This document shows, piece by piece, positions 8,897-38,779 of a DNA stretch of 39,183 nucleotides. This stretch comes from Microcaldota archaeon. Its GTDB lineage: Archaea; Micrarchaeota; Micrarchaeia; Anstonellales; J096. The DNA lies in assembly GCA_027024255.1 (NCBI GenBank), contig JALVSQ010000021.1, positions 1 to 39,183 of the forward strand. Reading direction: 5' to 3'. The position numbers and the translations under genes were made by a program. Numbering within the stretch: position 1 is the stretch's first letter; each line of letters opens with the position of its first letter. Below the pieces are notes generated by a model that ran no database searches, was not told the origin of the DNA, and saw only the letters and a list, made by a program, of their open reading frames with translations.

Positions 8897-10168
8897 CTAT
8901 TCTCTGCTGAATAATGACCACTTCCACACAGGCTTTACAGTTATTCTTTTCCCCTGCATTTCTACTTCATCTTCCTGGTCATAAGTTAAGATCAAACCTT
9001 CATCTAAGTTAAAGTAATCCATAGCCTCCAACAGACCCTTTATTTCTCTGTCCTTATTTTGCCTGCTCAACTCATAAGTCACCTGAACTGCTTTTGTAAC
9101 GCGCTGAGAGCCATGTTCCTTTACAATAAAGTCGCATTCTCTACCTGCTTTATAGAAGTTCAGGTCGTCACCATATCTCCTCAATAATTCAATTAAAACT
9201 AGATTTTCAAGTAGATGGCCTTTATTCAGTTTGTCTGGTTGTACAAAGTACTTTATGTAAGCATTATCTATTATATATATTTTCTTTGGACTCCTCAAAG
9301 ACTTCTTTGGAGAGTGTGAGAACGGTTCTAATGAGAACAATAAGAAACTCTGCTCACCGTAAAACACATACTTTTTAACAGTGTGTATATCTATTTTTTG
9401 CTGGATAGCATTCATAATGCTGTTGTATGTGTATGTTCTACCTGCATTTCTTATAAGATAAATTAACACCTCTTTCAGAAGAGGAATGTTTTTTACATGC
9501 CATCTGGCAGCAATATCTTTGTAAACTATGTCCTCAAAGTAAGTGCTTATATAAGCTGTGGTGTTTGATTTGACAAGCTCAGGAAAACCTCCATTTATCA
9601 GAAAATTGCTGAATTCTTTTTTTATTTTCCCTTTAATATCAAATCTATAAGCTTTTTTGAAGTCTATCTTTTTATAGGTAAGGTACTCTTTGAAGGAGAA
9701 AGGATATAAAGTGAAGTCAGTATGCCTTCCTGTTAAGTATGTGGTTATCTCTTTACTCAATAATGTTGAGTTTGAGCCTGTGATTATTACCTTATAACCC
9801 ATTTTTATCAATCTATTCAGGAACATATTCCAGTTGGGTTTATTCTGGACTTCATCAAATAAGATAAGCTCAAAATCAGAGCCATCCATGCTGAATACTT
9901 CAAGAATTAAGTCGTATTGGTCTGGCTTGAGATAAACCAGCCGTTCATCGCTGAAATCAAGGTACCTGAACCTGTGGTTTTGAGCAATCTGTCTGAGAAC
10001 GGTACTTTTTCCCACTCTTCTGTGACCGGTAATTACGCAGATTTTTTGCAAAGGACTTTTTAACTCATTTTCTATTTTTTTGTTTATCTCTCTTGTTACT
10101 CCATGTTCCTGTTTAATGAAAAAATCCCTTTGTTCCAGGTATATGTGCCTTAACTCATTAATCTGCAT
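8897..10168 (-). CDS. AAA ATPase 'D' with C-terminal nuclease-like domain (AAA_14/DUF4143 type)
   Basis: 423 residues from the preferred ATG at 10168. A TATA box (GTTTATAAAG, 10191-10200) lies about 27 nt upstream, so the longer frame reaching 10225 is unlikely. Walker A GHRRVGKST (about residues 49-57), Walker B LILFDEVQ, sensor VIITGSNS, then the family feature FTLYPFSFKEYL. The C-terminal domain has the PD-(D/E)XK-like pattern ENLVLIELLRRYG...ECDFIV...AVQV typical of DUF4143. The cellular role of this family is poorly defined. A threefold tandem repeat at 10206-10300 lies directly upstream, between this gene and divergent gatD. Confidence 0.85.
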   Translation of the reverse strand: MQINELRHIYLEQRDFFIKQEHGVTREINKKIENELKSPLQKICVITGHRRVGKSTVLRQIAQNHRFRYLDFSDERLVYLKPDQYDLILEVFSMDGSDFELILFDEVQNKPNWNMFLNRLIKMGYKVIITGSNSTLLSKEITTYLTGRHTDFTLYPFSFKEYLTYKKIDFKKAYRFDIKGKIKKEFSNFLINGGFPELVKSNTTAYISTYFEDIVYKDIAARWHVKNIPLLKEVLIYLIRNAGRTYTYNSIMNAIQQKIDIHTVKKYVFYGEQSFLLFSLEPFSHSPKKSLRSPKKIYIIDNAYIKYFVQPDKLNKGHLLENLVLIELLRRYGDDLNFYKAGRECDFIVKEHGSQRVTKAVQVTYELSRQNKDREIKGLLEAMDYFNLDEGLILTYDQEDEVEMQGKRITVKPVWKWSLFSRE

Positions 10169-10205
10169 AAATAATATTGTGCCTTTAATCTTTATAAACC
10201 TATTA

Positions 10206-10300
10206 CTTTTATGAAGTCCAAGCACATAAAAAATGCCTTATATTTGAAGTACATGCACATAAAAAAGAGCTTTTATATGGAATTTGCACACAAACACTTT
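10206..10300. repeat. tandem repeat upstream of ATPase D, about 31-33 nt period
   Basis: Three degenerate units begin at 10206, 10237 and 10270. Units 1 and 2 share GCACATAAAAAA (10222 and 10255, spacing 33) and TGAAGT; unit 3 has GCACACAAACAC at 10286. Each unit opens with CTT(T)TAT. The array starts about 6 nt upstream of the ATPase D TATA box. It lies within the divergent intergenic region, ending about 10 nt before the gatD TATA-like box, so it could act on both genes. Confidence 0.7.
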
Positions 10301-10339
10301 CATCAAAGCCTTTTAAATATTACCGGGCAGGATTTAAGC

Positions 10340-11530
10340 ATGAAAAAGGTTAAACTTAGATGGAGGGAAAAGGAGATCGAGGGTCTACTGATTGCTAAAA
10401 AAGGAGAATATCTTGAAATAAAGTTAAAGAGCGGCTACAACATAATGTTGAATGAAAATGAAGTTGAAATTCTTAAGGAAGAGGAATTCAAAAGGAGCTA
10501 TGCAAGAGGAGGAGAAGGTAAAGGAGAAGTCAGGATAATAGGATGTGGTGGCACCATAGGCTCCAAGGTAGATTATGAAACAGGAGGTGTTTCTCCTCAA
10601 ATAAGTGCGAGTGAGCTTGTTGCACAATACCCTGAGATAAAAGATATTGCAGGTGTTGAAACAAGGATGCTTTTTTCAATTCTCAGCGAGAATATGAGGC
10701 AGGAGCACTGGGAAAAGATAGTTGATGAAGTGGCAAAAGCATTTGAAGAGGAAAAGAGAGTTGTTTTACTTCATGGCACAGACACAATGCACTACACTGC
10801 CTCAGCTCTGGCATTTGCATTTAGAGGTATGCCTTCTCCTGTTGTTCTTACGGGCTCTCAAAGAAGTTCAGACAGGCCGAGCAGTGATGCGAGGCTTAAC
10901 CTGCTTAATGCTATTTACACATCAAAACAGGAATTTGGAGAAGTTGCTATAGTCATGCATTCATCAATAAACGATAATGAAGGAGTTGTTTTAAGGGGAG
11001 TTAGAGCAAGAAAAATGCATTCAACAAGAAGAGATGCATTTAAACCAATAAACGAAAGTCCATTGGCTTTTGTTGATTTTAAAAAGGGCATAGAATGGCT
11101 GAGCAAACCATCAAAGCCTGTTAGTGATTGGAAGGTTGAGAACGGCTTTTCAAGAAAAGTGGCCATGGTTTATATTTATCCGGGCATTGAGGAAGGAGTG
11201 TTTGATTATTATAAAAGCTATGATGGAATTGTTTTGCTCGGCACAGGCATGGGCCATACACCTACAGATATCATTGAAAAGATAAATGAAATGAAGGGCA
11301 TTGTTGTTATGAGCACTCAAACAATATACGGAAGGATTAACCTCAATGTTTATTCAACAGGGAGATTGCTCAAAAAGGCAGGAGTTATAGGTCATGAGCT
11401 TGATATTACGCCAGAAGCAGCATTTGTAAAGCTTTCATGGATTCTTTATAGAACGAAGGAGAGGCAAGAGGTGAAAAGGCTGTTTTACACAAATATGGCA
11501 AATGAATTTAGCATGAGGAGTGTTATTTAA
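10340..11530 (+). CDS. gatD: Glu-tRNA(Gln) amidotransferase subunit D
   Basis: GatD is the asparaginase-like subunit that supplies ammonia to GatE for converting Glu-tRNA(Gln) to Gln-tRNA(Gln) in archaea. An N-terminal beta-barrel-like region (about 1-65) is followed by the asparaginase fold: GCGGTIGS (catalytic Thr), LLHGTDTMHYTA, TGSQRSSDRPSSDA and VVLRGVRARK. The start is taken as ATG at 10340 (396 residues) because TTTTAAATATTA at 10311-10320 is at TATA distance; the frame runs open to 10211 only through the repeat array. gatE is not in the window; a tRNA-Gln gene lies at 24049. Confidence 0.95.
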   Translation: MKKVKLRWREKEIEGLLIAKKGEYLEIKLKSGYNIMLNENEVEILKEEEFKRSYARGGEGKGEVRIIGCGGTIGSKVDYETGGVSPQISASELVAQYPEIKDIAGVETRMLFSILSENMRQEHWEKIVDEVAKAFEEEKRVVLLHGTDTMHYTASALAFAFRGMPSPVVLTGSQRSSDRPSSDARLNLLNAIYTSKQEFGEVAIVMHSSINDNEGVVLRGVRARKMHSTRRDAFKPINESPLAFVDFKKGIEWLSKPSKPVSDWKVENGFSRKVAMVYIYPGIEEGVFDYYKSYDGIVLLGTGMGHTPTDIIEKINEMKGIVVMSTQTIYGRINLNVYSTGRLLKKAGVIGHELDITPEAAFVKLSWILYRTKERQEVKRLFYTNMANEFSMRSVI

Positions 11531-11554
11531 ATACTTTAACCTTCTATTTTTTAT

Positions 11555-12076
11555 GTGGATTACGAAACCTTAGTTGATATTTACAGGAAGGAAATGGCAA
11601 GTTCTGAATTGGTTAAGGTAGATCCTAACTTTTATACTGAATTAAAGAAACTTTTAGAGGAGAAGAAGAAAAGCCTTAGCGAGGATGATTTGTTAAGCCA
11701 GAAGGAGTACTGGAACCTTAAAAAGATGGTTAGCAGAATTGTTTCAAAAAGAATTCAGAAAATAATAATTGCTGCAAGCGAGGATATCGAGGTTGAGGCA
11801 ACACCTGAGGAGCAGGAGTTGTACGCAAGGGTTAAAGGAGCAATAGAAGGGTTTAAATCAGGAATAGAAACAGTAAAAGAGAATAAGCCCAGAGAAGAGG
11901 AGAAAGAAGAGGAAGTCCAGACTAACCTGAAGAAAATAAAGATAATAAAGTTTGTTGAGAAGTACATAGGAGAAAATGAGAAAGTTTATGGCCCTTACAA
12001 TGTAGGCGATATCGTTGAAATAGAGAAAGAAGAGGCAGAATGGCTTATTTCAACAGGTTATGCTGAAGAAGCCTAG
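11555..12076 (+). CDS. DNA replication GINS complex subunit Gins51 (Gins15)
   Basis: 173 residues. The N-terminal helical A domain (about 1-105) opens MDYETLVDIYRKEMASSELVKVDPNFY, a pattern typical of archaeal Gins51. A Glu-rich linker (about 110-125) leads to the small C-terminal B domain KIIKFVEKYIGENEKVYGPYNVGDIV. GINS joins MCM and GAN/Cdc45 in the replicative helicase. Start is GTG at 11555, leaderless: ATTTAAATA at 11524-11532 lies about 27 nt upstream; the overlapping ATG at 11553 is out of frame. Its 3' end overlaps the convergent membrane gene by 32 nt. Confidence 0.85.
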   Translation: MDYETLVDIYRKEMASSELVKVDPNFYTELKKLLEEKKKSLSEDDLLSQKEYWNLKKMVSRIVSKRIQKIIIAASEDIEVEATPEEQELYARVKGAIEGFKSGIETVKENKPREEEKEEEVQTNLKKIKIIKFVEKYIGENEKVYGPYNVGDIVEIEKEEAEWLISTGYAEEA

Positions 12077-12530
12077 CATAGAGCGTTAATGCAATTGTTT
12101 TTGATTTTCTGAATATGAGGTTTATAATAGTTGAGAGTAGCAGTACAGGATTATTTGACTTCCTTGTTTTGTGGTAAAGGATTGTTTTGAGCACAGCATT
12201 TTTCAGGGATTTTATGCTTTTTGAGAATATGAAGTATGTCTCCTTTGGAAAAAAGAAGGAGAAAAACCAGACTTTTTCATCCTCGCTTGTATCAACAAAC
12301 ATTAAATAGCCTGTATAAAAGCTTGTGAACGGATAAATGAGTAGAGAGGTTTTCCCGGAAACAATGAACAATATAATTGATATGATTAGAGATGGGATTA
12401 AAATAAATTTGGGCATTCCGTAACCTTTTAGAATTCCATATGCCACTAAAACAAGGAATAAAGGAGGCAGGGCATTCTCTGGGAAGAAAGGCAGCAAAAG
12501 AATTAAAGTAAAGAAGAGCAACAACTTCAT
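12045..12530 (-). CDS. membrane protein, possible EcfT/CbiQ-like transporter subunit
   Basis: 161 residues with about four hydrophobic segments near the N-terminus (3-17, 23-36, 42-58, 62-78), then a more soluble basic region ending KTIALTLYARLL. It overlaps the ABC ATPase gene by 4 nt, so it is likely its membrane partner. The arrangement and the C-terminal Ala-Arg-containing helix suggest a short relative of energy-coupling-factor T subunits, but the family motif is not clear. No substrate-binding S component is visible nearby. Confidence 0.55.
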   Translation of the reverse strand: MKLLLFFTLILLLPFFPENALPPLFLVLVAYGILKGYGMPKFILIPSLIISIILFIVSGKTSLLIYPFTSFYTGYLMFVDTSEDEKVWFFSFFFPKETYFIFSKSIKSLKNAVLKTILYHKTRKSNNPVLLLSTIINLIFRKSKTIALTLYARLLQHNLLK

Positions 12531-13192
12531 ATTCTCAGAGGCCTCAATCCAAACTGTTTTGCTTTTTTTAACAGCTCCTTTCCGAAGAGTATTTTCCTGT
12601 CTTTTATTATACCAACTTTTGTGGCATATTTGTATGCAAGGTATGTATCGTGAGTGGATACAATTATTATCCTCTCTTTACTCATCTTTCTGAGCAATTT
12701 GAATAGATTTTCTGCAACTGAAAAATCGAGGCTACTTGTTGGCTCATCGAGGATTATGAGCTTTGCCTTGCTTGATATGGCTGCACTTAGCAAGGTCCTT
12801 AACTTCTCCCCATAGGATATCTCAAACACATCCTTGTTCCTTAATTTGTATATAGCCATCTCTTTCAGGGCTTTTACTGCATCTTCCTCTGTTTTTGCGT
12901 TTATAAGCACATCATCCATTACAGTTGGGCCTATCAACTCGTTCTCTATGTCCTGGAACATGAAAAACTTGTCCTTGAACTCAGAAGGTCTTTTTCCAAA
13001 AATACTTATTCTTCCATCCACATTACATTCAATTTCATCTGGTATGATGCCGTATATGGCATAAAGAAGGGTTGTTTTTCCAGAGCCGTTAGGGCCAAGT
13101 AAGGCAAAGAGGTTCGAGGTCCTTAAGTCAAAGCTGATGTTTTTGAGTATTTCATTGGTGTAGGCAAGTGTAAGGTTTTTAACAGAAAGCAT
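12527..13192 (-). CDS. ABC transporter ATPase, energy-coupling-factor type
   Basis: 221 residues from ATG at 13192 (MLSVKNLTLAY matches family starts; an in-frame ATG at 13216 is the alternative). Walker A GPNGSGKTT, Q-loop FMFQDIENELIGPTV, Walker B LIILDEPTSSLD and switch STHD are intact. The Q-loop with following ENELIGPTV is characteristic of ECF ATPases. The signature loop reads ISYGEKLR instead of LSGGEKQR, a notable deviation at the second glycine-rich position. Coupled to the membrane protein downstream by a 4-nt overlap. Substrate unknown. Confidence 0.85.
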   Translation of the reverse strand: MLSVKNLTLAYTNEILKNISFDLRTSNLFALLGPNGSGKTTLLYAIYGIIPDEIECNVDGRISIFGKRPSEFKDKFFMFQDIENELIGPTVMDDVLINAKTEEDAVKALKEMAIYKLRNKDVFEISYGEKLRTLLSAAISSKAKLIILDEPTSSLDFSVAENLFKLLRKMSKERIIIVSTHDTYLAYKYATKVGIIKDRKILFGKELLKKAKQFGLRPLRI

Positions 13193-13277
13193 AATCCCTT
13201 CTTTATGCCAAGGCATTAAAATCTTTTCTTTTTAAATATTTCCAAGTGCATTTGGAAGGGTTTTTAAAGGAGCTTTT

Positions 13278-13321
13278 ATTTCCACACGGAAAAATTTTCC
13301 CAGCATTTTATTTCCACACGG
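13278..13321. repeat. 44-nt direct repeat, set 1, upstream of ATPase C
   Basis: Contains two cores ATTTCCACACGG at 13278-13289 and 13310-13321, spaced 32 nt, with CCCAGCATTTT between. Each core extended by GAAA/GAAAT is a short dyad TTTCC-ACAC-GGAAA. Identical over 44 nt to 13416-13459. The separation from set 2 is 138 nt, and no gene lies between the sets. Confidence 0.85.
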
Positions 13322-13415
13322 AAATAAAATTGCAGTCCTTTGAACTAATAAATCAGGGACATCATGATTATCTACTGAAAAAATCATGATAATATAATAA
13401 AAACATAGAAAAAAT

Positions 13416-13459
13416 ATTTCCACACGGAAAAATTTTCCCAGCATTTTATTTCCACACGG
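13416..13459. repeat. 44-nt direct repeat, set 2, at the ATPase C promoter
   Basis: Exact second copy of the 44-nt repeat, with cores at 13416-13427 and 13448-13459 (spacing 32 nt). It ends about 6 nt before the TATA-like TTTTTAAAAG at 13465-13474, the same position relative to the TATA box as the unrelated repeats of ATPases A and B. This suggests a promoter-proximal operator or loading site. Confidence 0.85.
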
Positions 13460-13492
13460 GAAAATTTTTAAAAGTTTCACATAATTAGCTAT

Positions 13493-14689
13493 ATGATGGA
13501 CGAGGACATGTTTACAAATGTTGTATCCTATTCACAAAAAATGATAAACAGCAATCTTGTTTCAAAACTCAGGCCTTTATCAATGGAAATAGTAAAAATG
13601 ATTCAAAATCAAAGCATTATAACAGCCATAAAGGGGTTAAGAGGTGTGGGCAAATCCTCTCTCCTCATATACTTTCTTTATCATCAAAAAGATAGCATTT
13701 ACATAAATGCTGAATATCTTCTTAAGCAAGGGCTTTCTCTGTATGAAGTGCTTGACTATGCTTATTCTCAGGGTTACAGGGTTTTCGGTATTGATGAAAT
13801 CCATGTTTTGAAAAACTGGCCTCTTGATGTAAAGCTCTTTTATGACCAAACCAGAGCAAAGATTGTGCTGACAGGTTCTTCAGCAATCTCTTTGCATATA
13901 ACCAGCTCTGAATTATCAAGAAGGGTTGTGTCAGTGGATTTAAAGCCGTTTTCGTTCAGGGAGTTTATATACTTTAAGACAGGCGTTTTACTTGAGAAAA
14001 GAACATTGAAAGAAATTTTAGAGAATAAAAAAGAGATAGCAAGGGAAATTGCTCCATTTGTAAGTATTTACAATGAGTTTCTGGAGTATTATGCTCTCCC
14101 TGCTGCTTTTTTTGAGAGTAAGGATGTTTATCCTGGCATAATAGAGAAGATAGTATATCATGATTTGATTTCATTGAAGAGCATTGATTTCAGTTATGTG
14201 GATGCTGCTTTTAAGACATTAAGATTTCTTGTTTCTTCAAAACCAGGGGAAATAAGTTATAATTCTCTGGCAAGTTCTCTGGGCAAATCTGTAAAGTTTT
14301 CAATCAGTCTGATTAATCTTTTAGCAAATGCAGGCATTCTTAATATAATCAATGCCCATGGAAGAGGGCATAAACCAATCAGAAGCGGGGTTAAAATCTC
14401 ATTACCTTTATCGTTCAGAAGCGCACTTGCCAGATACTTTAATACCGAAGTAGAAAAAGGAGCATTGAGAGAAGATTTTTTTATTCACCATGTTGGAAAC
14501 GCTTTTTATGTAAAGGAGATGGGTAGAAGATCTCCTGATTACTGGGTTGATGGTTATGTGTTTGAAATAGGTGGTCCTTCAAAGGGCAAAAGCCAGTTGG
14601 AAAGGTCTGAGAGAGGATTCCTGGTTAAGGAATCTTTATCAACCATGTCAAACGATGTGCCTATTTATCTGTTTGGTTTACTTTATTGA
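13493..14689 (+). CDS. AAA ATPase 'C' with C-terminal DUF4143-like domain
   Basis: 398 residues. Walker A KGLRGVGKSSL (about residues 45-55), Walker B-like FGIDEIHVLKNW, sensor VLTGSSA, then LKPFSFREFI. A helical/winged-helix-like middle is followed by a C-terminal domain with SPDYWVDGYVFEIGGPSKGK, a PD...E pattern of the PD-(D/E)XK type. It is a clear paralogue of ATPase B (QPDYK...LDLEIGGPSKTK). Start ATG at 13493 or 13496; the TATA box centred at about 13470 favours either. Its private repeat is duplicated upstream, and none is found downstream of the gene. Confidence 0.85.
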   Translation: MMDEDMFTNVVSYSQKMINSNLVSKLRPLSMEIVKMIQNQSIITAIKGLRGVGKSSLLIYFLYHQKDSIYINAEYLLKQGLSLYEVLDYAYSQGYRVFGIDEIHVLKNWPLDVKLFYDQTRAKIVLTGSSAISLHITSSELSRRVVSVDLKPFSFREFIYFKTGVLLEKRTLKEILENKKEIAREIAPFVSIYNEFLEYYALPAAFFESKDVYPGIIEKIVYHDLISLKSIDFSYVDAAFKTLRFLVSSKPGEISYNSLASSLGKSVKFSISLINLLANAGILNIINAHGRGHKPIRSGVKISLPLSFRSALARYFNTEVEKGALREDFFIHHVGNAFYVKEMGRRSPDYWVDGYVFEIGGPSKGKSQLERSERGFLVKESLSTMSNDVPIYLFGLLY

Positions 14690-14732
14690 AACCCACCAAC
14701 TTTTAAAAACAACCTCACCCCATTCTTAACTT

Positions 14733-17017: not shown

Positions 17018-17018
17018 C

Positions 17019-20710: not shown

Positions 20711-20744
20711 CGGGCCCGGAGGGATTTGCCCCTCTTCTCGGGTT
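20711..20744 (-). repeat. duplicated 3' end of tRNA-Arg (att-like or decayed tRNA)
   Basis: The 18 nt at 20711-20728 are identical to 20813-20830, the acceptor 3' strand and part of the T-arm of the adjacent tRNA-Arg, and weaker similarity continues to about 20744. The copy lacks the intact TTC of the T-loop and the rest of the cloverleaf. The spacing is 102 nt. This is either an attachment-site scar of an excised integrative element or the remnant of a duplicated tRNA. Confidence 0.65.
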
Positions 20745-20812: not shown

Positions 20813-20887
20813 CGGGCCCGGAGGGATTTGAACCCTCGACCTTCGGCTTAGAAGGCCGCCGCTCTATCCAGGCTGAGCTACGGGCCC
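20813..20887 (-). tRNA. tRNA-Arg (TCT)
   Basis: Read on the minus strand: acceptor GGGCCCG/CGGGCCC, D-stem GCTC/GAGC, anticodon loop CTTCTAA (anticodon TCT), T-arm GAGGG-TTCAAAT-CCCTC, discriminator G. The first anticodon-stem pair is mismatched (G/A). No intron and no encoded CCA. Its 3' end is partly duplicated 102 nt away. Confidence 0.94.
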
Positions 20888-25647: not shown

Positions 25648-26730
25648 ATGGGCATTCTTGAGAAGATAAAAGAGATAGAGGAGGAGATAAGAAAAACGCA
25701 GTACAACAAAGCCACAGAAAAACATATAGGCATACTAAAAGCAAAGCTGGCAAAGTTGAGAAGAGCTTTGCTTTCATCGAAAAAAGGAGGAGGCCATGGC
25801 TTTAGCATTTCTAAATCAGGTGATGCCACAGTTGCCTTAATCGGCTTTCCTTCTGTTGGAAAATCAACACTATTGGCAAAGCTTACAAATGCCGAAACAA
25901 AGGCAGCAGGCTATGCTTTCACAACATTATCAGTTGTTCCGGGCATGTTGCTGTACAAGAAGGCAAGAATACAGATACTTGATTTACCAGGCATTATAGA
26001 AGGAGCAGCGTACGGTAAAGGAAGGGGTAAAGAGGTTATAAGTGTGGCAAGGAATGCGGATTTGCTTTTAATCCTGCTTGAGCCTTTTAATGCAGAGAAG
26101 CACTTTAAAGCGATAATGAAGGAATTAAAGGCAATGGCCATAAGGCACGGAAAAAGGCCTGAAATATATGTAGAAAGAAAGCATAAAGGAGGCATTGCTT
26201 TATTCTACTCAAAACATTTGAGTGTTGATGAGGAGTTGGTTAAATCGATATTGAATGAGTATGGTATTCACAATGCCAATGTTATAATAAGAGAGGAGGT
26301 AACGCCTGAAAAACTCATAGATGTCCTTGAAAATAACAGGGTTTACATTCCTTACATTGTTGCTATAAACAAAATAGATATGTGTGATGAAGAATTGCTT
26401 AACAAGCTCAGGTTAAAGTTTAAAGATGTCGTATTCATTTCAGCAGAAAAGGGCATTGGCATTGAAGAATTGAAGGAAGCAATATTCAATTCCCTGAATT
26501 TTATAAGGGTTTATACAAAGCCTCTTGGCGGAGAACCTGATCTGGATGAGCCGATGATGTTGAGGAGAGGAGCAACGATAAGAGAGGTTTGCTTAAAACT
26601 CCACAGGGATTTGCTCAAAAACTTCAAATATGCTCTCGTATGGGGGAAAAGCGCTAAATTTCCCGGGCAGAGGGTAGGGCTTGACCATAAACTTGAAGAT
26701 GAGGATATAGTTACCATTGTATCAAGATAA
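25648..26730 (+). CDS. DRG-type (OBG family) GTPase with TGS domain
   Basis: 360 residues. N-terminal helical region (1-55), then the G domain: G1 GFPSVGKS, switch AAGYAFTTLSVVPGML, G3 LDLPGIIEGAAYGKGRG, G4 NKID, G5 SAEKGIG. The C-terminal TGS domain (about 292-360) ends KLEDEDIVTIVSR. DRG GTPases associate with translating ribosomes. ATG at 25648 follows a GAGTGAG sequence. Its stop codon is immediately followed by the repeat set of locus A. Confidence 0.94.
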   Translation: MGILEKIKEIEEEIRKTQYNKATEKHIGILKAKLAKLRRALLSSKKGGGHGFSISKSGDATVALIGFPSVGKSTLLAKLTNAETKAAGYAFTTLSVVPGMLLYKKARIQILDLPGIIEGAAYGKGRGKEVISVARNADLLLILLEPFNAEKHFKAIMKELKAMAIRHGKRPEIYVERKHKGGIALFYSKHLSVDEELVKSILNEYGIHNANVIIREEVTPEKLIDVLENNRVYIPYIVAINKIDMCDEELLNKLRLKFKDVVFISAEKGIGIEELKEAIFNSLNFIRVYTKPLGGEPDLDEPMMLRRGATIREVCLKLHRDLLKNFKYALVWGKSAKFPGQRVGLDHKLEDEDIVTIVSR

Positions 26731-26784
26731 CAATTTTCACCTCTTTCACAAATTTCACCTTTGCAATTTTCACCTGTTTCACCC
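26731..26784. repeat. upstream repeat set of AAA+ gene A
   Basis: Two 18-nt cores AATTTTCACCT(C/G)TTTCAC at 26732-26749 and 26765-26782 (spacing 33 nt), with a weaker AAATTTCACCT between them at 26750-26760. The set begins right after the GTPase stop codon and ends about 7 nt before the TATA-like TTTTTAAAAT at 26790-26799. A near-identical set lies 1211 nt downstream, directly after the ATPase stop. Confidence 0.9.
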
Positions 26785-26819
26785 AAAAGTTTTTAAAATC
26801 TGGGTTTCAAATACCAAGC

Positions 26820-27941
26820 ATGAAAGAACTTAAAGAGTATGTTAAAGCCCTTGAAGATAGACCACTAACATTTGAAGATGAGGATTTATTTGTAGATAGA
26901 GAAATAGAGCTAAAAAAGATGGCAGAGCTTGATTATTACTTTGAAGGAAAGATAATAGGTGTGTGCGGCCAGAGGGGCATAGGAAAAACAACTCTCTTCA
27001 ACTTTTCAAGGTTCCCTGGAAAAAATAAACTTATAATAAAAATTATAGACAGGGAAAATAAACTCTCCATCATATCCAACATAATTGGTGAGATAATTAC
27101 ATATTCAAAAACAAAGGGCTATAATGAGATTGAAAAAATGGGTAAGAAACTCTTCACAAAAATTCATGTATCAAAAAAAGAGGCTGTGGGCATATCCTAT
27201 ATAATTGAATATAAGCAAACAAAGGAGGAAAAAATATCACTCTTTAACTTCTTGAAGTCGTTTAAGAAATTCATGGATTTGTTGAGTAAAAAGGAAAGGC
27301 TCGTGATAGTACTTGATGAAATAGATAAGCAGAAGGTGGATGAGATTCTCCTTCTTGTGGATGCTATAAAAGATGCATTTGTATCAAACTCCATCACTCT
27401 GTTTGTTGCCTTGCCTTATGAATTTTACGAAAACTTTATATCATCAAAGACGAGTTCAACAGAAACTCACAACCTTGAGAATGTATTCAGTTATATGTTC
27501 CTTCTGGAACCTTTTTCAGATGACGATGTGAAGAGAATAATCTCAAGAAGATTTCCTTTAAGTCTTATTGAGGAAGAGGCATTGAATAAGATTGTTGAGT
27601 TTGCTGATGGAAATCCAAGAAAGGCAATAACAACGCTTAAAGAGGCAGGCATAATTGCAGAGGGAAAGATAAGGCTAAGTGATGTAAAAGGAGTTATATC
27701 AAGGTACATAAGAACTTGGATAAAATCAACTAAGTTAACTCAAAATGAACTGAATGTTTTCAGATTAATTGAAGATGGTAGAGTTGCAGATATAACTCAA
27801 GGAGTATCTAAAAAACTCAGAAAATCAAGGTCTGTGGTATACAAGTACTTAAAGAAGTTTGAGGAAGCAGGGCTTTTAAATCTGGAAGGTAAAAATGCTG
27901 AGCTGAGCAGGATGGGCAGGCTTGTAAAGGAAGTGATATAA
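26820..27941 (+). CDS. AAA+ ATPase 'A', Orc1/Cdc6-like with C-terminal winged helix
   Basis: 373 residues. Walker A GQRGIGKTTL (residues 50-59), Walker B LVIVLDEIDK (about 160-170), sensor-1 region LFVALPYEF, and sensor-2-like GNPRKAITTLK (about 267-277). The C-terminus (about 305-373) is a winged-helix domain (LTQNELNVFRLIEDG, SRSVVYKYLKKFEEAGLLNLEG). The layout resembles Orc1/Cdc6 and the archaeal ATPase family; the sequence is too divergent to call an initiator. Leaderless start: TATA centred 25 nt upstream. The gene sits exactly between two copies of a private repeat. Confidence 0.8.
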   Translation: MKELKEYVKALEDRPLTFEDEDLFVDREIELKKMAELDYYFEGKIIGVCGQRGIGKTTLFNFSRFPGKNKLIIKIIDRENKLSIISNIIGEIITYSKTKGYNEIEKMGKKLFTKIHVSKKEAVGISYIIEYKQTKEEKISLFNFLKSFKKFMDLLSKKERLVIVLDEIDKQKVDEILLLVDAIKDAFVSNSITLFVALPYEFYENFISSKTSSTETHNLENVFSYMFLLEPFSDDDVKRIISRRFPLSLIEEEALNKIVEFADGNPRKAITTLKEAGIIAEGKIRLSDVKGVISRYIRTWIKSTKLTQNELNVFRLIEDGRVADITQGVSKKLRKSRSVVYKYLKKFEEAGLLNLEGKNAELSRMGRLVKEVI

Positions 27942-27995
27942 CAGTTTTCACCTCTTTCACAAATTTCACCTTTACAATTTTCACCTCTTTCACTT
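27942..27995. repeat. downstream repeat set of AAA+ gene A
   Basis: Cores at 27943-27960 and 27976-27993, spaced 33 nt, the same order and orientation as upstream, offset by exactly 1211 nt, with only a few mismatches over about 54 nt. It starts 1 nt after the ATPase stop and runs into the last codons of the convergent DUF134 gene. Confidence 0.9.
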
Positions 27996-31551: not shown

Positions 31552-32979
31552 TTATTCTTTCTCTAACTTCAGGGTTTTTTCTGCTAATTGTTCAAGTGCT
31601 GTTTCAGATGCTTCTTTAACATCATAATCCTCGTATTTATCCTTTAACCTTTCCATAAGAGCATTAATGATCTTCCTATTTGCTACCCCTAATTTTCCTA
31701 AAGCCTTAGCAGCTGTTTCTTTAACATACCATTCTTCATTTTTGTCTTTTAACCTCTCTACAAGAGCATTAACAACTTCTTTATTTGCTACTCCTAATTT
31801 TCCTAAAGCCTTAGCAGCTGCTTTTCTAACACTTGGGTGTTCACTTTCATCATTCAACCTTTCTACAAGAGCATCAATAACCTTTTCACTCGCACCACCT
31901 AATTCTCCTAAAGCCAAACATACTCCAGCTCTTTCTTTCCAATCTGTGCTGTTAATATCAGGTAAAATTCTCTCAACAATTTCTTCCTCCATTTTGTTCT
32001 TTTTAGCTATTTTACCAAGGGCTTCAGCAGCTGCTTTTCTAACACTTGGGTGTTCACTTTCATCATTCAACCTTTCTACAAGAGCATTAATAACTTCCTC
32101 ACTTGGAACTCCTAATTCTCCTAAAGCCAGACATACTCCATGTCTTTCTTTCCACTCTGTGCTGTTAATACCGGGTAAAATTCTTTCAACAATTTCGTTT
32201 TCAATGTTATTCTTCTTAGCTGTTTTACCAAGAGCTTCGACAACTGCTTCTCTAACATCTTCATCCTCATCTTTCAGCCTCCCTACAAGAGCATTAATAA
32301 CCTTTTTATTTGCAACCTCCAGTTTACCTAAAGCCTCAGCAACTGCTTTTTTAACATCCCATTTTTCGTTCTCATCCTTCAACCTCTTTACAAGTACTTT
32401 AATGAGCTTCTCGTTTTCTTCCACTGACTTAACCAATGCTTTAATAACTGTTTTTATAACCTTTCGGAATTTACCTTCCTTTTTAAGTTTATCTGTCGTA
32501 GATTTGGTTTCTTTTCTTGCAGCCCCTAATTTGCCAAGGGCTTCAGCAGCTTCTTTTCTAACCCTTGTGTATTCCCTTTTATCATTCAACCTCTCTACAA
32601 GAGCATTAATAACCTTCTTACTTTTTACTCCCAGATCACCCAGGGCAGCACAGGCTTCCATCCTTTCCTCCCAATCCTCACTATTAATCTTAACCAAAAG
32701 AGTTTCTATTACTTTATTGACCAGTTCCTTGGTTACTTCCTCTCCGAACCTTTCCTTTATCTCTTCAATAGTCTTTTTATCAGGGATTCCTTCCTTAAAC
32801 TCTTCAAGCAATCTTTTAACCACCTCTTCTTTGTATTTATGGACCTGAGAAGGAGCTATAAGTCTTACTAACTTTTCATCAGGAATTCCTTTTCCTTCCA
32901 TTAACTTATTAAGTAAATTGGCCTCTCTTCTTTTAGCTTCTTCTATATTCTCCTTCACCCTTTCCTTGAATTTTCTCAT
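31552..32979 (-). CDS. HEAT-repeat family protein 2
   Basis: 475 residues. N-terminal domain (about 1-110) with GIPDEKLVRLIAPSQVHKY shared with the paralogues, then about eight to nine HEAT/PBS-lyase-type repeats with the consensus ALGKLGVANKKVINALVERL. Two neighbouring blocks are nearly identical in DNA, showing recent internal duplication. It ends AEKTLKLEKE just past an A6 run; in another frame the DNA encodes NPEVRERIRKLIAG before a TAA, which looks like the ancestral end. Probably a scaffold or binding protein; partner unknown. ATG start at 32979. Confidence 0.85.
   Translation of the reverse strand: MRKFKERVKENIEEAKRREANLLNKLMEGKGIPDEKLVRLIAPSQVHKYKEEVVKRLLEEFKEGIPDKKTIEEIKERFGEEVTKELVNKVIETLLVKINSEDWEERMEACAALGDLGVKSKKVINALVERLNDKREYTRVRKEAAEALGKLGAARKETKSTTDKLKKEGKFRKVIKTVIKALVKSVEENEKLIKVLVKRLKDENEKWDVKKAVAEALGKLEVANKKVINALVGRLKDEDEDVREAVVEALGKTAKKNNIENEIVERILPGINSTEWKERHGVCLALGELGVPSEEVINALVERLNDESEHPSVRKAAAEALGKIAKKNKMEEEIVERILPDINSTDWKERAGVCLALGELGGASEKVIDALVERLNDESEHPSVRKAAAKALGKLGVANKEVVNALVERLKDKNEEWYVKETAAKALGKLGVANRKIINALMERLKDKYEDYDVKEASETALEQLAEKTLKLEKE
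31813..32087. repeat. internal duplication in HEAT gene 2
   Basis: The 62 nt at 31813-31874 recur exactly at 32026-32087, an offset of 213 nt (71 codons). Exact identity over this length inside a coding repeat points to a recent unequal exchange or duplication adding one block. Confidence 0.8.
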
Positions 32980-33109: not shown

Positions 33110-33140
33110 CTTTATAAACATATCCTCTGCTTACCATTTT

Positions 33141-33710
33141 ATGAGAAGAATTTCATGGCCTCTGTACATAGCTGCCTTTACCATAAGCTTATTCATATTT
33201 GCTCTTGGCTTTTACTTTGCTTTGCTTGTGGAGGAGCACGCCAAAGCGACCATGGCTGAGAAACTTGATAAATTAACTCAAAACAGCGTTTTAATGCAAC
33301 TCTTTTTATTGACAAATTATGATCCTTCATTCTGCCCCATCTATAAGGAGGCTTTGAAGAGGAGTTATGAAGAAGTTGAGACAATAGGCAATGAACTAAC
33401 ATACCTTGAAGAGGTTAGAGGAGAAAGAAATCTGGAATTAAAGAAGGATTATTTTATGTTTGAGTTAAAGACATTTTTACTTGCTAAAAGAGTAAAGGAG
33501 ATATGCAGTACTGATGAGCATTTTGCCCTTTACTTTTATTCTAAAAATTGTTCTGAATGCGATGAGTTAGGAAAGCAATTGATTAATGAGAGAAAGAAGG
33601 ACCCCTCTCTAAAAGTTTTTTCGTTTGAAGATGGTATTAATAGTTCTGTTGTTGAATCATTAAAAGCAAAGTACAATGTTACAGTGCCATCTGTAATTAG
33701 AGTTGATTGA
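33141..33710 (+). CDS. membrane-anchored thioredoxin-like protein
   Basis: 189 residues: an N-terminal membrane helix (about 7-30), a helical linker (35-120) and a C-terminal thioredoxin-like domain. The redox pair is Cys137-S-E-Cys140 in FYSKNCSECDELG, and VTVPSVIRVD supplies the family's cis-proline. Orientation suggests an extracytoplasmic domain, perhaps for disulphide chemistry. Further cysteines are Cys65 and Cys122. TTTATAAAC at 33111-33119 is about 26 nt before ATG 33141, so the gene is leaderless. Its end overlaps the convergent glycosyltransferase gene by 14 nt. Confidence 0.75.
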   Translation: MRRISWPLYIAAFTISLFIFALGFYFALLVEEHAKATMAEKLDKLTQNSVLMQLFLLTNYDPSFCPIYKEALKRSYEEVETIGNELTYLEEVRGERNLELKKDYFMFELKTFLLAKRVKEICSTDEHFALYFYSKNCSECDELGKQLINERKKDPSLKVFSFEDGINSSVVESLKAKYNVTVPSVIRVD

Positions 33711-34743
33711 ATAGTTTTATCCACCTTTTAGCAATTCTTTTTATATCATATTCCTTTGCCTTTTTAATGCACTCCTTTTCATCTGCTTTCTTTGCTTCTT
33801 CAAACGCTTTCATAAAAGAGTGCCTGTCCCAGAATACACTTGTTGCTAATTCCTCTCCTGCTGTGCCTTTTAATGCAATCACAGGCATGCCTGAGGCTAA
33901 GGCCTCAAGAACAACCAGCCCCTGAGTATCAAATTTTGAAGTGAATATAAGGGCAGTTTTTGTTTTGTAAAGTCTTTTTAGCTCTTCATCGCTTACAAAG
34001 CCAAGAAAATGAACAAGGTGAGAAACATTGAATTCTTTTGCTTTTGATTTAAAATAATCAATTCCCGGCCCTTTTCCAGCAATATACAAGTGAATATTCT
34101 TTAAGTAAGGAAATACAACATCAAATCCTTTTTCTTTAACAACCCTGCCAACATGTAGAAGTGAATCTTCTTTACATTCTCTTTTTCCTTTGAATGCATC
34201 TGTTTTTATGCCGTTAGGCATTACAATAGCATTTATTCCATGTGCCTTTAATTTATTTGATGCATATGTGGTTGGAGCAGTTACAACATCGAATTTTGAG
34301 TAAAGAAATTTTAAGTATGCCCAGGCAAGTTTTTCAGCACTCTTTTCTATTAACTTGTTCTTTGCTATGTAATGGGTTGCATCTGCGATGCTTGTGTGGA
34401 ATGTGGCTATTGAAGGAATGCTAAATGCATGTGCCATTGCCAGTGCAGCCCATGCAGTTAGAGCAACACCATGGTTATGCACTATGTCAATGTTCTTTTC
34501 CTTAAATAGGCTCTTTAATTTTAGAAAGTTGGGAAATGCAAATTTATAGTCGGGATAAGGCTTGAAAGGTGTTGATGTGAAGTAAAACACATCTTTAGTT
34601 TGCATTTCTTTACCATCAGGAGATGGAGCAAATACATAAACCTTATGGCCCAGTTTTTCTAACTCTTCTTTAAGCAATGAAATGCTCACAACAACACCGT
34701 CTTTATTTGGTAAATAACTGTCTGTAAAAAAGGCTATATTCAT
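33697..34743 (-). CDS. GT4-family glycosyltransferase
   Basis: 348 residues, GT-B fold. The N-terminal domain opens MNIAFFTDSYLPNKDGVVVS and includes DIVHNHGVALTAW; the C-terminal donor domain has LLHVGRVVKEKGFDVVF and the nucleotide-sugar motif FDTQGLVVLEALASGMPVIA. It probably transfers a sugar to a lipid or glycan acceptor on the cytoplasmic face of the membrane; donor unknown. ATGA overlap with the GT2 gene upstream makes a two-gene operon. Confidence 0.9.
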   Translation of the reverse strand: MNIAFFTDSYLPNKDGVVVSISLLKEELEKLGHKVYVFAPSPDGKEMQTKDVFYFTSTPFKPYPDYKFAFPNFLKLKSLFKEKNIDIVHNHGVALTAWAALAMAHAFSIPSIATFHTSIADATHYIAKNKLIEKSAEKLAWAYLKFLYSKFDVVTAPTTYASNKLKAHGINAIVMPNGIKTDAFKGKRECKEDSLLHVGRVVKEKGFDVVFPYLKNIHLYIAGKGPGIDYFKSKAKEFNVSHLVHFLGFVSDEELKRLYKTKTALIFTSKFDTQGLVVLEALASGMPVIALKGTAGEELATSVFWDRHSFMKAFEEAKKADEKECIKKAKEYDIKRIAKRWIKLFNQL

Positions 34744-35438
34744 TCTCTCACAGCCTCATATTTGTTAAATGAGGAGTTGAGTAAATTTACTTTAAAAAAG
34801 TTTATTGTGTGAAAAACAGCATATCTCAACCAGCCCCATTTCCTTATCCTTCTGTTACTTGTGAATGTTCTTGCATTCTCAACAAAAACAACCTTACATA
34901 TTTTCTTTACTCTTTTTATTAAATCAGTATCTTCACCTGTTTGCATATCTCTGATTCCACCAACCTTATCGTAAACACTCCTTTTTATTGCTATACTGTC
35001 ACCTGAGGCAAACACAAAGCCTATTAAGAAAGCAAGAGGGATGAGGCATTTATTTAATATGAATCCACCTACTCTTTCAATTAAATTTGATTCTTCAACA
35101 TAAATGCTTCCCACAGCAGCGCAGGCTTTTCCTTCTATTATTGGTCTGGTTAAGTTGTAAAGCCACTCATTATCATAAACTGCATCGGCACTTGCCAAAA
35201 CAATTATATCTCCTTTTGCCTTTTCAACACCCTTTGCCCTTCCATAGCCAATACCTTCTCTCTTCACATCAACAATTCTGCATTTGAATTTCTTTGCTAT
35301 TTCCCTTGTCTTATCTTTACTTTTATAATCAGCTATTATTACCTCATCAGGTTTAAGGCTTTGTCTCATTATACTTTTCAGTGTCTTTGCTAAATACCTC
35401 TCTTCATTGTAAGTTGGAATAACGATGCTTATCCTCAC
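34740..35438 (-). CDS. GT2-family glycosyltransferase
   Basis: 232 residues, GT-A fold. It opens MRISIVIPTYNEERYLAKTL, with VIIADYKSKDKT and GRAKGVEKAKGDIIVL. The usual DxD metal motif appears as ASADAVYD, keeping the second Asp only. GEDTDLIKRVKK is the catalytic-base region. A hydrophobic stretch (about 128-147) may associate with the membrane. First gene of the operon with the GT4 enzyme, suggesting joint work on a surface glycan or lipid. Confidence 0.88.
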   Translation of the reverse strand: MRISIVIPTYNEERYLAKTLKSIMRQSLKPDEVIIADYKSKDKTREIAKKFKCRIVDVKREGIGYGRAKGVEKAKGDIIVLASADAVYDNEWLYNLTRPIIEGKACAAVGSIYVEESNLIERVGGFILNKCLIPLAFLIGFVFASGDSIAIKRSVYDKVGGIRDMQTGEDTDLIKRVKKICKVVFVENARTFTSNRRIRKWGWLRYAVFHTINFFKVNLLNSSFNKYEAVRE

Positions 35439-35537
35439 AACTTATGCTTAACAAACAACATTTAAAAAAATTCCTGAGGCAGTGTGTTTTGCTTTTTGGA
35501 GTAATTTCTCTTCATTTTTAACCTGCTATTAACTTTC

Positions 35538-36352
35538 TTATTCTTTCTCTAACTTCAGGGTTTTTTCTGCTAATTGTTCAAGTGCTGTTTCAGATGCTTC
35601 TTTAACATCATAATCCTCGTATTTGTCCTTTAACCTTTCCATAAGAGCATTAATGACTTCTTCATTTGCTACTCCCAATTCTCCCTGCGTATTTTAACTA
35701 AAGCCTCAGCAACTGCTTTTTTAACATCCCATTTTTCGTTCTCATCTTTTAACCTCCCTATAAGAGCATCCATTACTTCTTTACTTGCAATTCCTAATTC
35801 TCCTAAAGCCAGACATACTTCATATCTTTCTTCCGGGTTTCTGCTGTTAATACCGGGTAAAATTCTTTCAACAATTTCTTCCTCCATTTTGTTCTTTTTA
35901 GCTATTTTACCCAGGGCTTCAGCAACTGCTTTTTTAACATACGGCAATTCGCTCCCATCTTTCAACCTTTCTAAAAGAGCATTAATAACCTTCTTACTTT
36001 TTACTCCCAGATCACCCAGGGCAGCACAGGCTTCCATCCTTTCCTCCCAGTCCTCACTATTAATCTTAACCAAAAGAGTTTCTATTACTTTATTGACCAG
36101 TTCCTTGGTTACTTCCTCTCCGAACCTTTCCTTTATCTCTTCAATAGTCTTTTTATCAGGGATTCCTTCCTTAAACTCTTCAAGCAATCTTTTAACCACC
36201 TCTTCTTTGTATTTATGGACCTGAGAAGGAGCTATAAGTCTTACCAACTTTTCATCAGGAATTCCATCTTCCATTAACTTCTTAAATAAATTAGCCTCTC
36301 TTCTTTTGGCTTCTTCTATATTCTCCTTCACTATTTTCATCAATTTTCTCAT
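35538..36352 (-). pseudogene. HEAT-repeat family protein 3, frameshifted copy of protein 2
   Basis: The intact N-terminal frame (35669-36352) codes for 227 residues, nearly identical to HEAT protein 2 over its N-terminal domain and first repeats. Relative to the paralogue, about 14 extra nt near 35682-35695 shift the frame, so translation stops at 35669. Past that point the other frame still encodes the C-terminal repeat through AEKTLKLEKE, ending at 35538. The 139 nt at 35518-35656 match 31532-31670 with one mismatch, so the damage is recent. The copy also lacks most middle repeats. It may be a pseudogene or a functional shortened protein. Confidence 0.75.
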
Positions 36353-36464
36353 TATGTTAATTATTGTGGAATGAAATGTTTAAAAAACTTAGATGGAATT
36401 ATCCTGAATGATTATCTGGAAAGCACCTGTTTTAAATAATCTTTGTTGAGTTAAATACAAAACC

Positions 36465-37409
36465 ATGAATGTTATGCTTATTGCTGAGGGCAACGGTTAT
36501 GGTCATGCTTCCAGGCTTTCTTTATTGGCTACTTACTTCAAGGAGCCTATAATTACATTCTACAAAGGCGTTGAGTTTTGTAAAAAAGAGGGCATTCCAT
36601 ACATTGATATTGGCACGCCTTACTACATTGATGATGAAAATGTTGCCTTAAAGTTAAACATAAATGGTATGAAAAGATGGTTCAAGCCCCTTTTGCTCAA
36701 AAATCTTGTGGATATGGCTAAGGAAAAGGATGTAATTATAGGGGATACATCTCTTTTAGCATTGGTAATCGGCAAGATAGCAAAGAAGCCAGTCATAGGT
36801 ATTTTCAGCGATGTTTACAGCAATACATTTATCCCTTCATTTATAAATCCAATAAGCAAGAAGACTATTGCAGCAGTCCTGAATATGTTTGATTCTCTCC
36901 TCATTCCTGATTTTCCACCACCTTATTCAATTTCCTCCTTAAACCTTCAATTAAAAAAAGCAAGGTTCATAGGACCTATGGTTAAGCCCATCAGGCAGGT
37001 AAAGCATAACATTCCATTAGTTGTTTCAGCAGGGGGCAACGGCATTGAGGTTAAGAGGATTAAAGACCTTGGTTTAAGGTTTATTTCTCAATACGATGTT
37101 AAAAACATAAGGCAGTATTACAAGCATGCAAAGGGTATTTTGACCCATGGTGGCCACACAACAATAATGGAAGGCATTTACTATGCTAAACCACTTTTGT
37201 TTTTTGTTAATAAAAAGTACAAAGAAAGGCTCAACAACTCTGTGAAGGCAGAATCCTTAGGCATTGGAAGGATTGTTTCCTTAGAGAGTTTACCCATGGC
37301 CATTGATGAGATTGATTTTATGAAAAAGAGGGTTTTGTGGTTTTCCAAATGGGCAAGAAGGTTTAATCCTGTAAAAGATGTTGAAGATGAAATAAGTAAA
37401 TTTGTTTAA
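36465..37409 (+). CDS. GT-B glycosyltransferase (MurG/UDP-GT-like)
   Basis: 314 residues. The N-terminus MNVMLIAEGNGYGHASRL has the Gly-rich acceptor loop of MurG-like enzymes; the C-terminal motif GILTHGGHTTIMEGIYYAKP is the nucleotide-sugar site of this group. LVVSAGGNGIE marks the start of the second Rossmann domain. Likely transfers a sugar from a UDP/NDP donor. TTTTAAATA at 36431-36439 lies about 30 nt before ATG. The locus B repeat begins right after its stop. Confidence 0.83.
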   Translation: MNVMLIAEGNGYGHASRLSLLATYFKEPIITFYKGVEFCKKEGIPYIDIGTPYYIDDENVALKLNINGMKRWFKPLLLKNLVDMAKEKDVIIGDTSLLALVIGKIAKKPVIGIFSDVYSNTFIPSFINPISKKTIAAVLNMFDSLLIPDFPPPYSISSLNLQLKKARFIGPMVKPIRQVKHNIPLVVSAGGNGIEVKRIKDLGLRFISQYDVKNIRQYYKHAKGILTHGGHTTIMEGIYYAKPLLFFVNKKYKERLNNSVKAESLGIGRIVSLESLPMAIDEIDFMKKRVLWFSKWARRFNPVKDVEDEISKFV

Positions 37410-37413
37410 TTGT

Positions 37414-37461
37414 CCATTTTTCTGGACAAAAATTTCAATTTTTGTAAATTTTTCTGGACAA
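37414..37461. repeat. 48-nt direct repeat downstream of ATPase B
   Basis: Two cores ATTTTTCTGGACAA at 37416-37429 and 37448-37461, spaced 32 nt. The 48 nt are identical to 38732-38779, offset 1318 nt, same orientation. At this copy TGTCC at 37411-37415 also makes a dyad with GGACA at 37423-37427. It ends 2 nt before the ATPase stop codon. Confidence 0.92.
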
Positions 37462-37462
37462 G

Positions 37463-38695
37463 CTATACAAGGCAGGCAAGGTATAAGGGTAAGGTGACCA
37501 CATTACCTTCTATACTTATCTCTTCTCCTTCTTTTAAAAGAAAGCCCTTTCTTATCTGGCTTTTTGTTTTTGACGGGCCTCCTATTTCAAGGTCAAGGAA
37601 CGCATTGCCTGCCCTTATCTTATAATCAGGCTGTTTTTTTCCATGATTGTAGAAAAGAGGTATTTTTTTGTAATAAAAAGAGGAGACAACTGCATCTTCT
37701 CTGAGGCCACCTATGTTTTCTCTGAGATAAAGGTTAAGTGTTAAGCTGTGCCTTAATAAAGGAGATGAAAACAAAAACTTTCTTTCTTTCCTTAACGAAG
37801 CAGATGAAGGGGGATATGGCAACACAGATATAAGAAAGGAGGATGTTTCAAGAGCATTTAAGATGTTCAACACAGTCGTTCTTGATGTTCCTGCTATTTC
37901 TGCAAACCTCTGGAGCGATATCTTTTCAGGTGGGGAAAGGGCTATTGTTTCAACTATCTTTCTTGCTTTTTCACCTGCATCTATGTTGAAGCCTCCTATG
38001 TAGGGGAAATCAAATGTTACTATCTGGGAGAGGAGGCTGTAAGCAACATCCCTGACATTCATCCCGAATGCAAGGGGAAATCCATGGGTGAGGTATTCCC
38101 TGAATTCGTAGCTTAAACTCCTTAACCTTAATAAATAATCTTTTGCCTTTGTGTATGCATCCTTTGGCATAGATGAAAATATGTCAATTGCAGATTCATT
38201 TACATGTATGCCTTTCTTTATTCTCAGATATTCCCTGAAGGTAAGAGGAGGCAGTTCATAGAATACGGCCCTTCTTGCCATTGCAGAACCTTTGAGCCTT
38301 ATCTTTATGGCTGAGGATCCCGTTGCTATTATTTTAAGCTTGAAGTTATCATATATTATTTTAAGCTTTTTATCCCATTCGCTAATGTCTGTTAGCTCAT
38401 CTATGTAAAGTGTTCGGAGGTTGGTGTGCTTTATGTAGTCTTTAACAACCTTCACAATGTCCAGTTTGTAATAAGATAGACTCGACCCGTCTATGAACAT
38501 GCCGTCTCTTTCAGCCATTGCCTGATTCAATGAAACAGATTTTCCTATACCTCTTAATCCGTAATATATGAAAGCAAGTTCTCCTTTTTCATTTTTGAGC
38601 CTTTCAACAATATCTCTTTGTTTGTACTTTTTAGCATCTTCTTTTCTTTCCTCTTTCTTTTCTTCCATGAACCTTATGAATTCAAAAACGTCCAT
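37463..38695 (-). CDS. AAA ATPase 'B' with C-terminal DUF4143-like domain
   Basis: 410 residues. Walker A YYGLRGIGKS (about 44-53), Walker B TLYIDELTD, sensor IIATGSSA, then LPPLTFREYL, a winged-helix-like segment (LQRFAEIAGTSRTTVLNIL, about 265-290) and a C-terminal PD-(D/E)XK-like domain (QPDYKIRAG, LDLEIGGPSKTK). Closest relative in the window is ATPase C. ATG at 38695; ATATTTTTAAAGT on the minus strand (about 38717-38729) is at TATA distance. The gene is enclosed by two perfect 48-nt direct repeats and sits between a glycosyltransferase and an S-layer gene. Confidence 0.87.
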   Translation of the reverse strand: MDVFEFIRFMEEKKEERKEDAKKYKQRDIVERLKNEKGELAFIYYGLRGIGKSVSLNQAMAERDGMFIDGSSLSYYKLDIVKVVKDYIKHTNLRTLYIDELTDISEWDKKLKIIYDNFKLKIIATGSSAIKIRLKGSAMARRAVFYELPPLTFREYLRIKKGIHVNESAIDIFSSMPKDAYTKAKDYLLRLRSLSYEFREYLTHGFPLAFGMNVRDVAYSLLSQIVTFDFPYIGGFNIDAGEKARKIVETIALSPPEKISLQRFAEIAGTSRTTVLNILNALETSSFLISVLPYPPSSASLRKERKFLFSSPLLRHSLTLNLYLRENIGGLREDAVVSSFYYKKIPLFYNHGKKQPDYKIRAGNAFLDLEIGGPSKTKSQIRKGFLLKEGEEISIEGNVVTLPLYLACLV

Positions 38696-38731
38696 TGTAA
38701 GTCTTTTTAATAAAATACTTTAAAAATATTG

Positions 38732-38779
38732 CCATTTTTCTGGACAAAAATTTCAATTTTTGTAAATTTTTCTGGACAA
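38732..38779. repeat. 48-nt direct repeat at the ATPase B promoter
   Basis: Cores ATTTTTCTGGACAA at 38734-38747 and 38766-38779 (spacing 32 nt). The near core lies about 7 nt upstream of the ATPase B TATA box, matching loci A and C. Its other side is 36 nt from the stop codon of the S-layer gene. Confidence 0.92.

Follow-up and report, generated by a model that had tools for sequence, protein, structure and literature searches.

The closest described relatives of most genes analysed here are the AAA_14/DUF4143, COG1373-type ATPases, which we take to be the family listed as PDC-S01 and for which, to our knowledge, no mechanism is known. A survey reports PDC-S01 as ranking fourth by frequency among the defence entries of prokaryotes and as an abundant candidate single-gene defence family of unvalidated antiviral activity, in which an ATPase is fused to a PD-(D/E)XK-type domain (PMC12988326). 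The survey covers prevalence and phylogeny, and in the part available paired upstream sites and bracketed genes are not mentioned (PMC12988326). A second point of comparison is provided by the haloarchaeal origins adjacent to orc/cdc6 genes, whose ORB repeats are specific to the adjacent gene and shared only within a protein family, so that the likeness consists in an AAA/winged-helix gene with adjacent gene-specific repeats (PMC3528665). However, ORBs belong to the origin and surround its AT-rich unwinding region, whereas the sites described below are paired, lie 31-34 nt apart and are located at a promoter (PMC3528665). The proteins differ from haloarchaeal Orc/Cdc6 as well, with the remote exception of gene A.

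Two further classes of system share single features with the locus. The controllers of toxin-antitoxin and restriction-modification systems have palindromic operators of system-specific sequence at their own promoter, as is partly the case here, but one protein would in our case be both regulator and effector, and the same spacing holds in archaea and bacteria alike. Insertion sequences and integrative elements carry a single gene between terminal repeats and occupy different locations in different genomes; this also applies to the bracketed units reported below, but their end blocks are direct and private, no known transposase or integrase was found in the units, whose sole content is the ATPase gene, and no target-site duplication was found. 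While the protein family and the private repeats at orc/cdc6 genes are thus known, the spacing rule and the bracketed genes are apparently unreported for the AAA_14/PDC-S01 family, since no report of either was encountered in the open-access literature searched (COG1373, DUF4143/DUF234, PF13173/PF13635).

Four ATPase genes and their repeat blocks

The window is the whole stretch of 39,183 nt that was analysed and corresponds to an entire contig of an AT-rich archaeal genome (G000; 874,647 bp in 52 contigs), which contains more than 20 AAA_14 genes. Four ATPase genes of the window, here called A to D, are listed with their repeat blocks in Table 1. B, C and D are AAA_14 ATPases (PF13173), and A belongs to a separate, Orc/Cdc6-like family; against the TIGR02928 model it reaches 29.8 bits (2.7e-7), far under the cut-off of 181.3, and therefore falls outside the Orc1/Cdc6 family as delimited by that model. 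Residues 302-369 of A match a profile of the Csa3/CasR-like wHTH. Its structure model, computed from a single sequence, was too poor for use (pLDDT 36). With the PDC-S01 models of PADLOC, D and the proteins of two further loci (L004, L008) are matched over nearly their full length (1e-99 to 7e-93), B and C only weakly and in part, and A not at all. The likely start of D is the ATG rather than the GTG at 10225.

Table 1. Positions of the ATPase genes in the window and of the repeat blocks beside them.
Feature	Position	Strand	Description
Gene A	26820..27941	+	373 aa; Orc/Cdc6-like ATPase with C-terminal winged helix; weak PF01637 (3e-5)
A upstream block	26727..26782	+	cores at 26734 and 26767, 33 nt apart; TATA-like box 26790-26798
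A downstream block	27938..27993	+	cores at 27945 and 27978, 33 nt apart; overlaps the A stop codon
Gene B	37463..38695	-	410 aa; AAA_14 ATPase, weak DUF4143; PF13173 7e-18, PDC-S01 4e-20
B upstream block	38728..38779	-	TTGTCCAGAAAAAT twice, 32 nt apart; cores at 38734 and 38766; TATA-like box 38719-38728
B downstream block	37409..37461	-	48 nt identical to the upstream block, inter-core spacer included; between convergent genes
Gene C	13493..14689	+	398 aa; AAA_14 ATPase; PF13173 1.2e-21, PDC-S01 4e-23
C proximal upstream block	13415..13468	+	TTTCCACACGG at 13417 and 13449, 32 nt apart; TATA-like box 13465-13473
C distal upstream block	13277..13330	+	first 45 nt identical to the proximal block
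Gene D	8897..10168	-	423 aa from ATG 10168; AAA_14 + DUF4143; PF13173 3e-34, PF13635 6e-19, PDC-S01 1e-99
D upstream block	10212..10277	-	two 33-nt copies, GCACATAAAAAA at 10222 and 10255; TATA-like box 10190-10198

The model of D, based on 56 aligned sequences (pLDDT 93.7), comprises the ATPase core together with a helical part, the winged helix (approximately 228-299) and an alpha-beta-beta-beta-alpha-beta domain at 316-413, with the Walker motifs at G48-K54 and D105-E106. Read from the modelled secondary structure, residues 316-413 have the element order of PD-(D/E)XK nucleases, so that the fusion of an ATPase core with a PD-(D/E)XK-type domain that is described for PDC-S01 is also found in D, the one protein among B, C and D that was modelled. 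Invariant residues are E321, E344 and D346; the E-x-K motif, on the other hand, reads Q-V-x-Y in D, and catalysis by D is uncertain because the usual catalytic lysine is absent; B and C carry E-I-G-G-x-x-K. The nearest solved structures, and the best structural matches of the model, are the archaeal STAND/MNS-type ATPases SSO1545 (2fna, E 6e-9) and PAB2304 (2qen, E 7e-8), at a TM-score of just 0.43-0.51 and 14-15% identity.

A repeat search of the window recovered the repeats of all four genes. The core of A is TTTTCACCT(C/G)TTTCAC and that of B is ATTTTTCTGGACAAA; the repeat of C, TATTTCCACACGG, begins at 13415 and 13447. The downstream block of B contains the dyad TTGTCCA-gaaaaa-TGGACAA. The preliminary description of this DNA had reported repeats spaced 31-33 nt upstream of all four genes, each ending about 6-7 nt before a TATA box. 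The spacing is borne out at every gene, including D, whose copies had been misplaced and whose supposed third copy near 10270 is not an exact one. As to the promoter, a TATA-like box lies within a few nucleotides of the repeat at A, B and C and is followed by the start codon, whereas the gap at D is about 23 nt. The blocks behind A and B and the second block of C, which lies 138 nt from the first and likewise upstream, go beyond that description. For D, the repeat search of the window detected the one upstream set and no downstream copy.

In a search of the entire genome (874,647 bp) the core of A occurs four times, that of B four times and that of C three times, each solely at its own gene, so the addresses of A, B and C are private. 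The 12-mer GCACATAAAAAA of D is found three times, twice at D, with the only other exact copy at G000:C2:18381-18392.

Spacing and divergence of the paired sites

The spacing was measured for 96 distinct AAA_14 genes of the window's genome and of related ones. For each gene, the 140 nt upstream and the first 45 nt of the open reading frame were searched for their best self-match, which was evaluated against dinucleotide-preserving shuffles. A significant upstream repeat was obtained for 37 genes, with an offset of 31-34 nt in all 37 and of exactly 32 nt in 22, and the remaining 59 had none by this strict test. If the best offset is taken whether significant or not, it falls within 31-34 nt in 63 of the 96. 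Among control genes with independent upstream regions, 2/52 were significant and 0/52 were so at 31-34 nt, while the best offset lay in this range in 7/52, approximately as expected by chance. An earlier control set had given seven hits at 32 nt; it contained neighbours that share intergenic DNA with an ATPase gene and was evaluated with a weaker shuffle, and none remained at 31-34 nt after filtering and dinucleotide shuffling. Among 76 loci from one GTDB scan, 33 were significant against simple shuffles, and 27 of these showed an offset of 32-34 nt (archaea 12/13, bacteria 15/20). Examples are TTTGTTTCCTTTAAGAAACAA in a genome of the same order and AATTTGTCCTACCCACAGGACAAAATGA, which occurs exactly twice, 32 nt apart, in another archaeon. 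Dyads are enriched, being present at 29/96 AAA_14 genes as opposed to 5/60 controls, but are not universal. The spacing is therefore a strong tendency and not a law, because the loci are phylogenetically non-independent and most genes fail the strict test. A common ancestral site of the form TCCTT-n-AAGGA was considered and rejected, as it accounts for a minority only (6/75 loci, 0.3 expected).

The arrangement is not confined to one ATPase family, since homologues of A with private repeats of their own are present in another genome (G025), three of them at 38-42% identity and a fourth, truncated one at 32%. Two of these homologues have a block on both sides (scores 30 and 53), in which the half-sites are spaced by about 10 nt and point in the same direction. 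On another contig of the window's genome (C26, locus L146, 9364-14993), four AAA_14 genes stand head to tail, three of which have a detectable upstream repeat, all different.

In the preliminary description, the combination of same geometry and different sequence was read as a modular system in which each ATPase has its own DNA address. This is well supported in that the geometry recurs in dozens of archaeal and bacterial homologues, although the four ATPases do not form a single set, A being of another family and D differing in promoter geometry. Against its own idea, that description had set repeats scattered over the genome, which were not found, the cores of A, B and C being restricted to their genes, and homologues without upstream repeats; a good part of the AAA_14 genes indeed have no detectable one. 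It had also proposed to test whether the repeat varies together with the winged-helix region. At a protein identity of 55% or above, half of the cross-genome pairs had upstream regions more alike than shuffles, and this share was 31% at 45-55% and 7-9% at lower identity; this trend fits a site and a protein that change together and is supporting, not decisive, because plain divergence gives the same pattern. The rank correlations between site similarity and domain identity are equally weak for the ATPase, the wHTH and the nuclease part (0.13-0.15, from non-independent pairs), so that the wHTH is not singled out; judging from the model of D, each protein may plausibly recognise its site through its own winged helix.

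Genes bracketed by two blocks

When the upstream flank of each gene was compared with its downstream flank, a score of at least 20 was reached by 35/100 AAA_14 genes and 2/90 control ORFs, the latter after removal of gene A, which the way of compiling the controls had placed among them. Some of the 35 owe their score to tandem gene copies or repeat-rich DNA, and a tight set of 32 units, all from the window's order within the Micrarchaeota, was drawn from them by position. These units measure 1073-1445 bp (median 1280 bp), and their blocks of 20-97 bp (median 55 bp) have a median identity of 94%. Relative to the stop codon, the downstream block begins between -44 and +22 nt. The set includes at least two units (L035, L060) whose blocks are a short match and not a paired operator. 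A neighbour was called for 28 of the tight units and is convergent in 15 of them; the downstream blocks of A and B also lie between convergent genes and are hence not promoters of a neighbour. In 14 loci searched outside the window's order, no comparable copy was found behind the gene.

Possible roles of the private blocks

We consider it most probable, at roughly 0.6, that the paired sites are autogenous operators, i.e., that each ATPase binds its own address and thereby regulates itself. The short, often palindromic sites form pairs, sometimes groups of three or four, 31-34 bp apart, which corresponds to about three helical turns and places both sites on one face of the DNA beside the promoter. 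The gene's own product would bind through its winged-helix domain as an oligomer spanning the paired sites and would repress its promoter until a signal, which for a putative defence gene may be infection, releases it. The spacing would be fixed by the shared protein architecture, and the sequence by the recognition surface, so that it could drift with each protein, and the privacy of the addresses would insulate the 20 or more paralogues of a cell from cross-control. Sites that are located at the gene's own promoter and unique in the genome were found for A, B and C, and the case of D is less clear. A modelled winged helix between the ATPase and the PD-(D/E)XK-like fold of D counts in favour of this reading. 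Counting against it are the A-type sites, which are direct repeats, the absence of dyads from many genes, the 59 of 96 genes without a significant upstream repeat and the failure of covariation to single out the wHTH. The paired private site beside the gene, with its 31-34-nt spacing, points to the likely DNA ligand of many PDC-S01 members at once, and the private addresses amount to an extensive body of natural data on changes in the target of a DNA-binding domain.

Autoregulation alone does not account for the blocks behind the genes, A and B included, about half of which face a convergent neighbour, and promoter function is thus an insufficient explanation by itself. Judged from the sequences, a bracketed gene may constitute a mobile cassette, the blocks being the ends of an element whose ATPase-nuclease binds both of them, excises or copies the unit and inserts it elsewhere, perhaps via a circle with one block. 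Genes with only an upstream block would then be decayed or settled forms. We regard this reading, which is compatible with autoregulation, as possible but tentative. It is favoured by the uniformity of the 32 tight units, by the excess of bracketed AAA_14 genes over controls (35/100 against 2/90), by a patchy distribution among relatives, by 11 cross-genome homologous pairs that have only ATPase-family ORFs in common within flanks of 0.7-4 kb, and by boundaries of homology that coincide or nearly coincide with the blocks. Two members of a pair from different families share 92% identity over a stretch made up of 106 nt before the gene, the gene itself and a further 6 nt, where the homology ends. 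At least six cross-genome pairs have upstream repeats that are more conserved than expected from shuffles, and several show a match between genomes for the blocks of both ends. Two genomes of the same genus (G007 and G003) share a unit that is homologous from block to block at different loci, and what lies to the left of the G007 unit is found on one G003 contig and what lies to its right on another, with synteny broken. In addition, the two blocks of one unit are usually more alike (81-100%) than is the same block between homologues (64-84%), with the exceptions of one cross comparison at 98% and of locus L078, whose computed 65% reflects the annotated start and whose blocks are nearly identical. 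In G003, 27 nt of the upstream block recur at the opposite end of the unit, where they code for the C-terminal end of the ATPase. At L060 (genome G014), an AAA_14 gene lies between 21-bp copies of AAAAGCCCCAGGAGGGATTTG, which resembles a tRNA 3' end (1282-1302 and 2652-2672), and ARAGORN calls no tRNA at these copies; as a general rule, tRNA insertion was rejected, this being one suggestive case and others not having held.

Several observations speak against movement. Flanks of the 32 units gave a mean longest match of 4.7 nt as compared with 4.2 nt in permuted pairs, with no consistent length, and hence no target-site duplication. No clean empty site was found when the window and two elements were compared with related genomes, where synteny was too eroded. 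A, B and C are single copies in their genome, with neither a multi-copy family nor solo blocks, bracketing was missing from the 14 loci outside the order, and D lacks the usual catalytic lysine. As for viral carriage, one scan of IMG/VR yielded only 23 relatives. Should the bracketed form move nevertheless, it would represent a mobile unit that lacks any recognised transposase. A more specific version, which appears doubtful to us, would be a minimal mobile unit in which the private operator of a single ATPase-winged helix-nuclease gene doubles as the end sequence and one protein both controls and moves itself, each of the many copies per genome having its own address.

Bracketing could also be left over from tandem duplication, with gene and promoter duplicated and the second gene subsequently lost while its operator stayed behind. 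The ATPase tandem arrays on contig C26 and the gene's 3' end within the upstream block of G003 would agree with this, but in the units inspected the downstream block ends before any coding sequence of a second copy, and many unrelated members, as well as the family of A, show bracketing, which makes such an origin unlikely. Considerably less probable is that the repeats are iterons and that each ATPase initiates replication at its own set, in the manner of orc/cdc6 genes and ORB repeats. A is Orc/Cdc6-like, and haloarchaea are known to carry private repeats next to the cognate orc/cdc6 gene (PMC3528665), but more than 20 such genes in 875 kb are far too many for origins, B to D are ATPase-nuclease proteins and not Orc1/Cdc6, and the sites are located at promoters and behind genes. 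Chance repeats, for which the shortness of the cores and the AT-richness of the genome might be cited, can practically be dismissed in view of the dinucleotide shuffles, the gene controls, the genome-wide uniqueness and the conservation between genomes.

Some minor features of the surrounding DNA were also recorded. Downstream of the ATPase gene at L085 (genome G004, contig C11), the intergenic DNA is rich in repeats, with many short, near-palindromic, GC-rich units, and adjoins a tRNA-Pro gene. In the window, positions 20711-20728 are an exact 18-nt copy (CGGGCCCGGAGGGATTTG) of the 3' end (20813-20830) of a tRNA-Arg gene on the minus strand (20813-20887), at a distance of 102 nt, and resemble an integration scar. 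Furthermore, families of 105-nt and 36-nt repeats that are 62-92% alike and in phase with 35-aa units occur at 31584-31898 and 35570-35793, in or near two open reading frames, and from their sequence probably encode a repeat protein, e.g., of the HEAT-like type.
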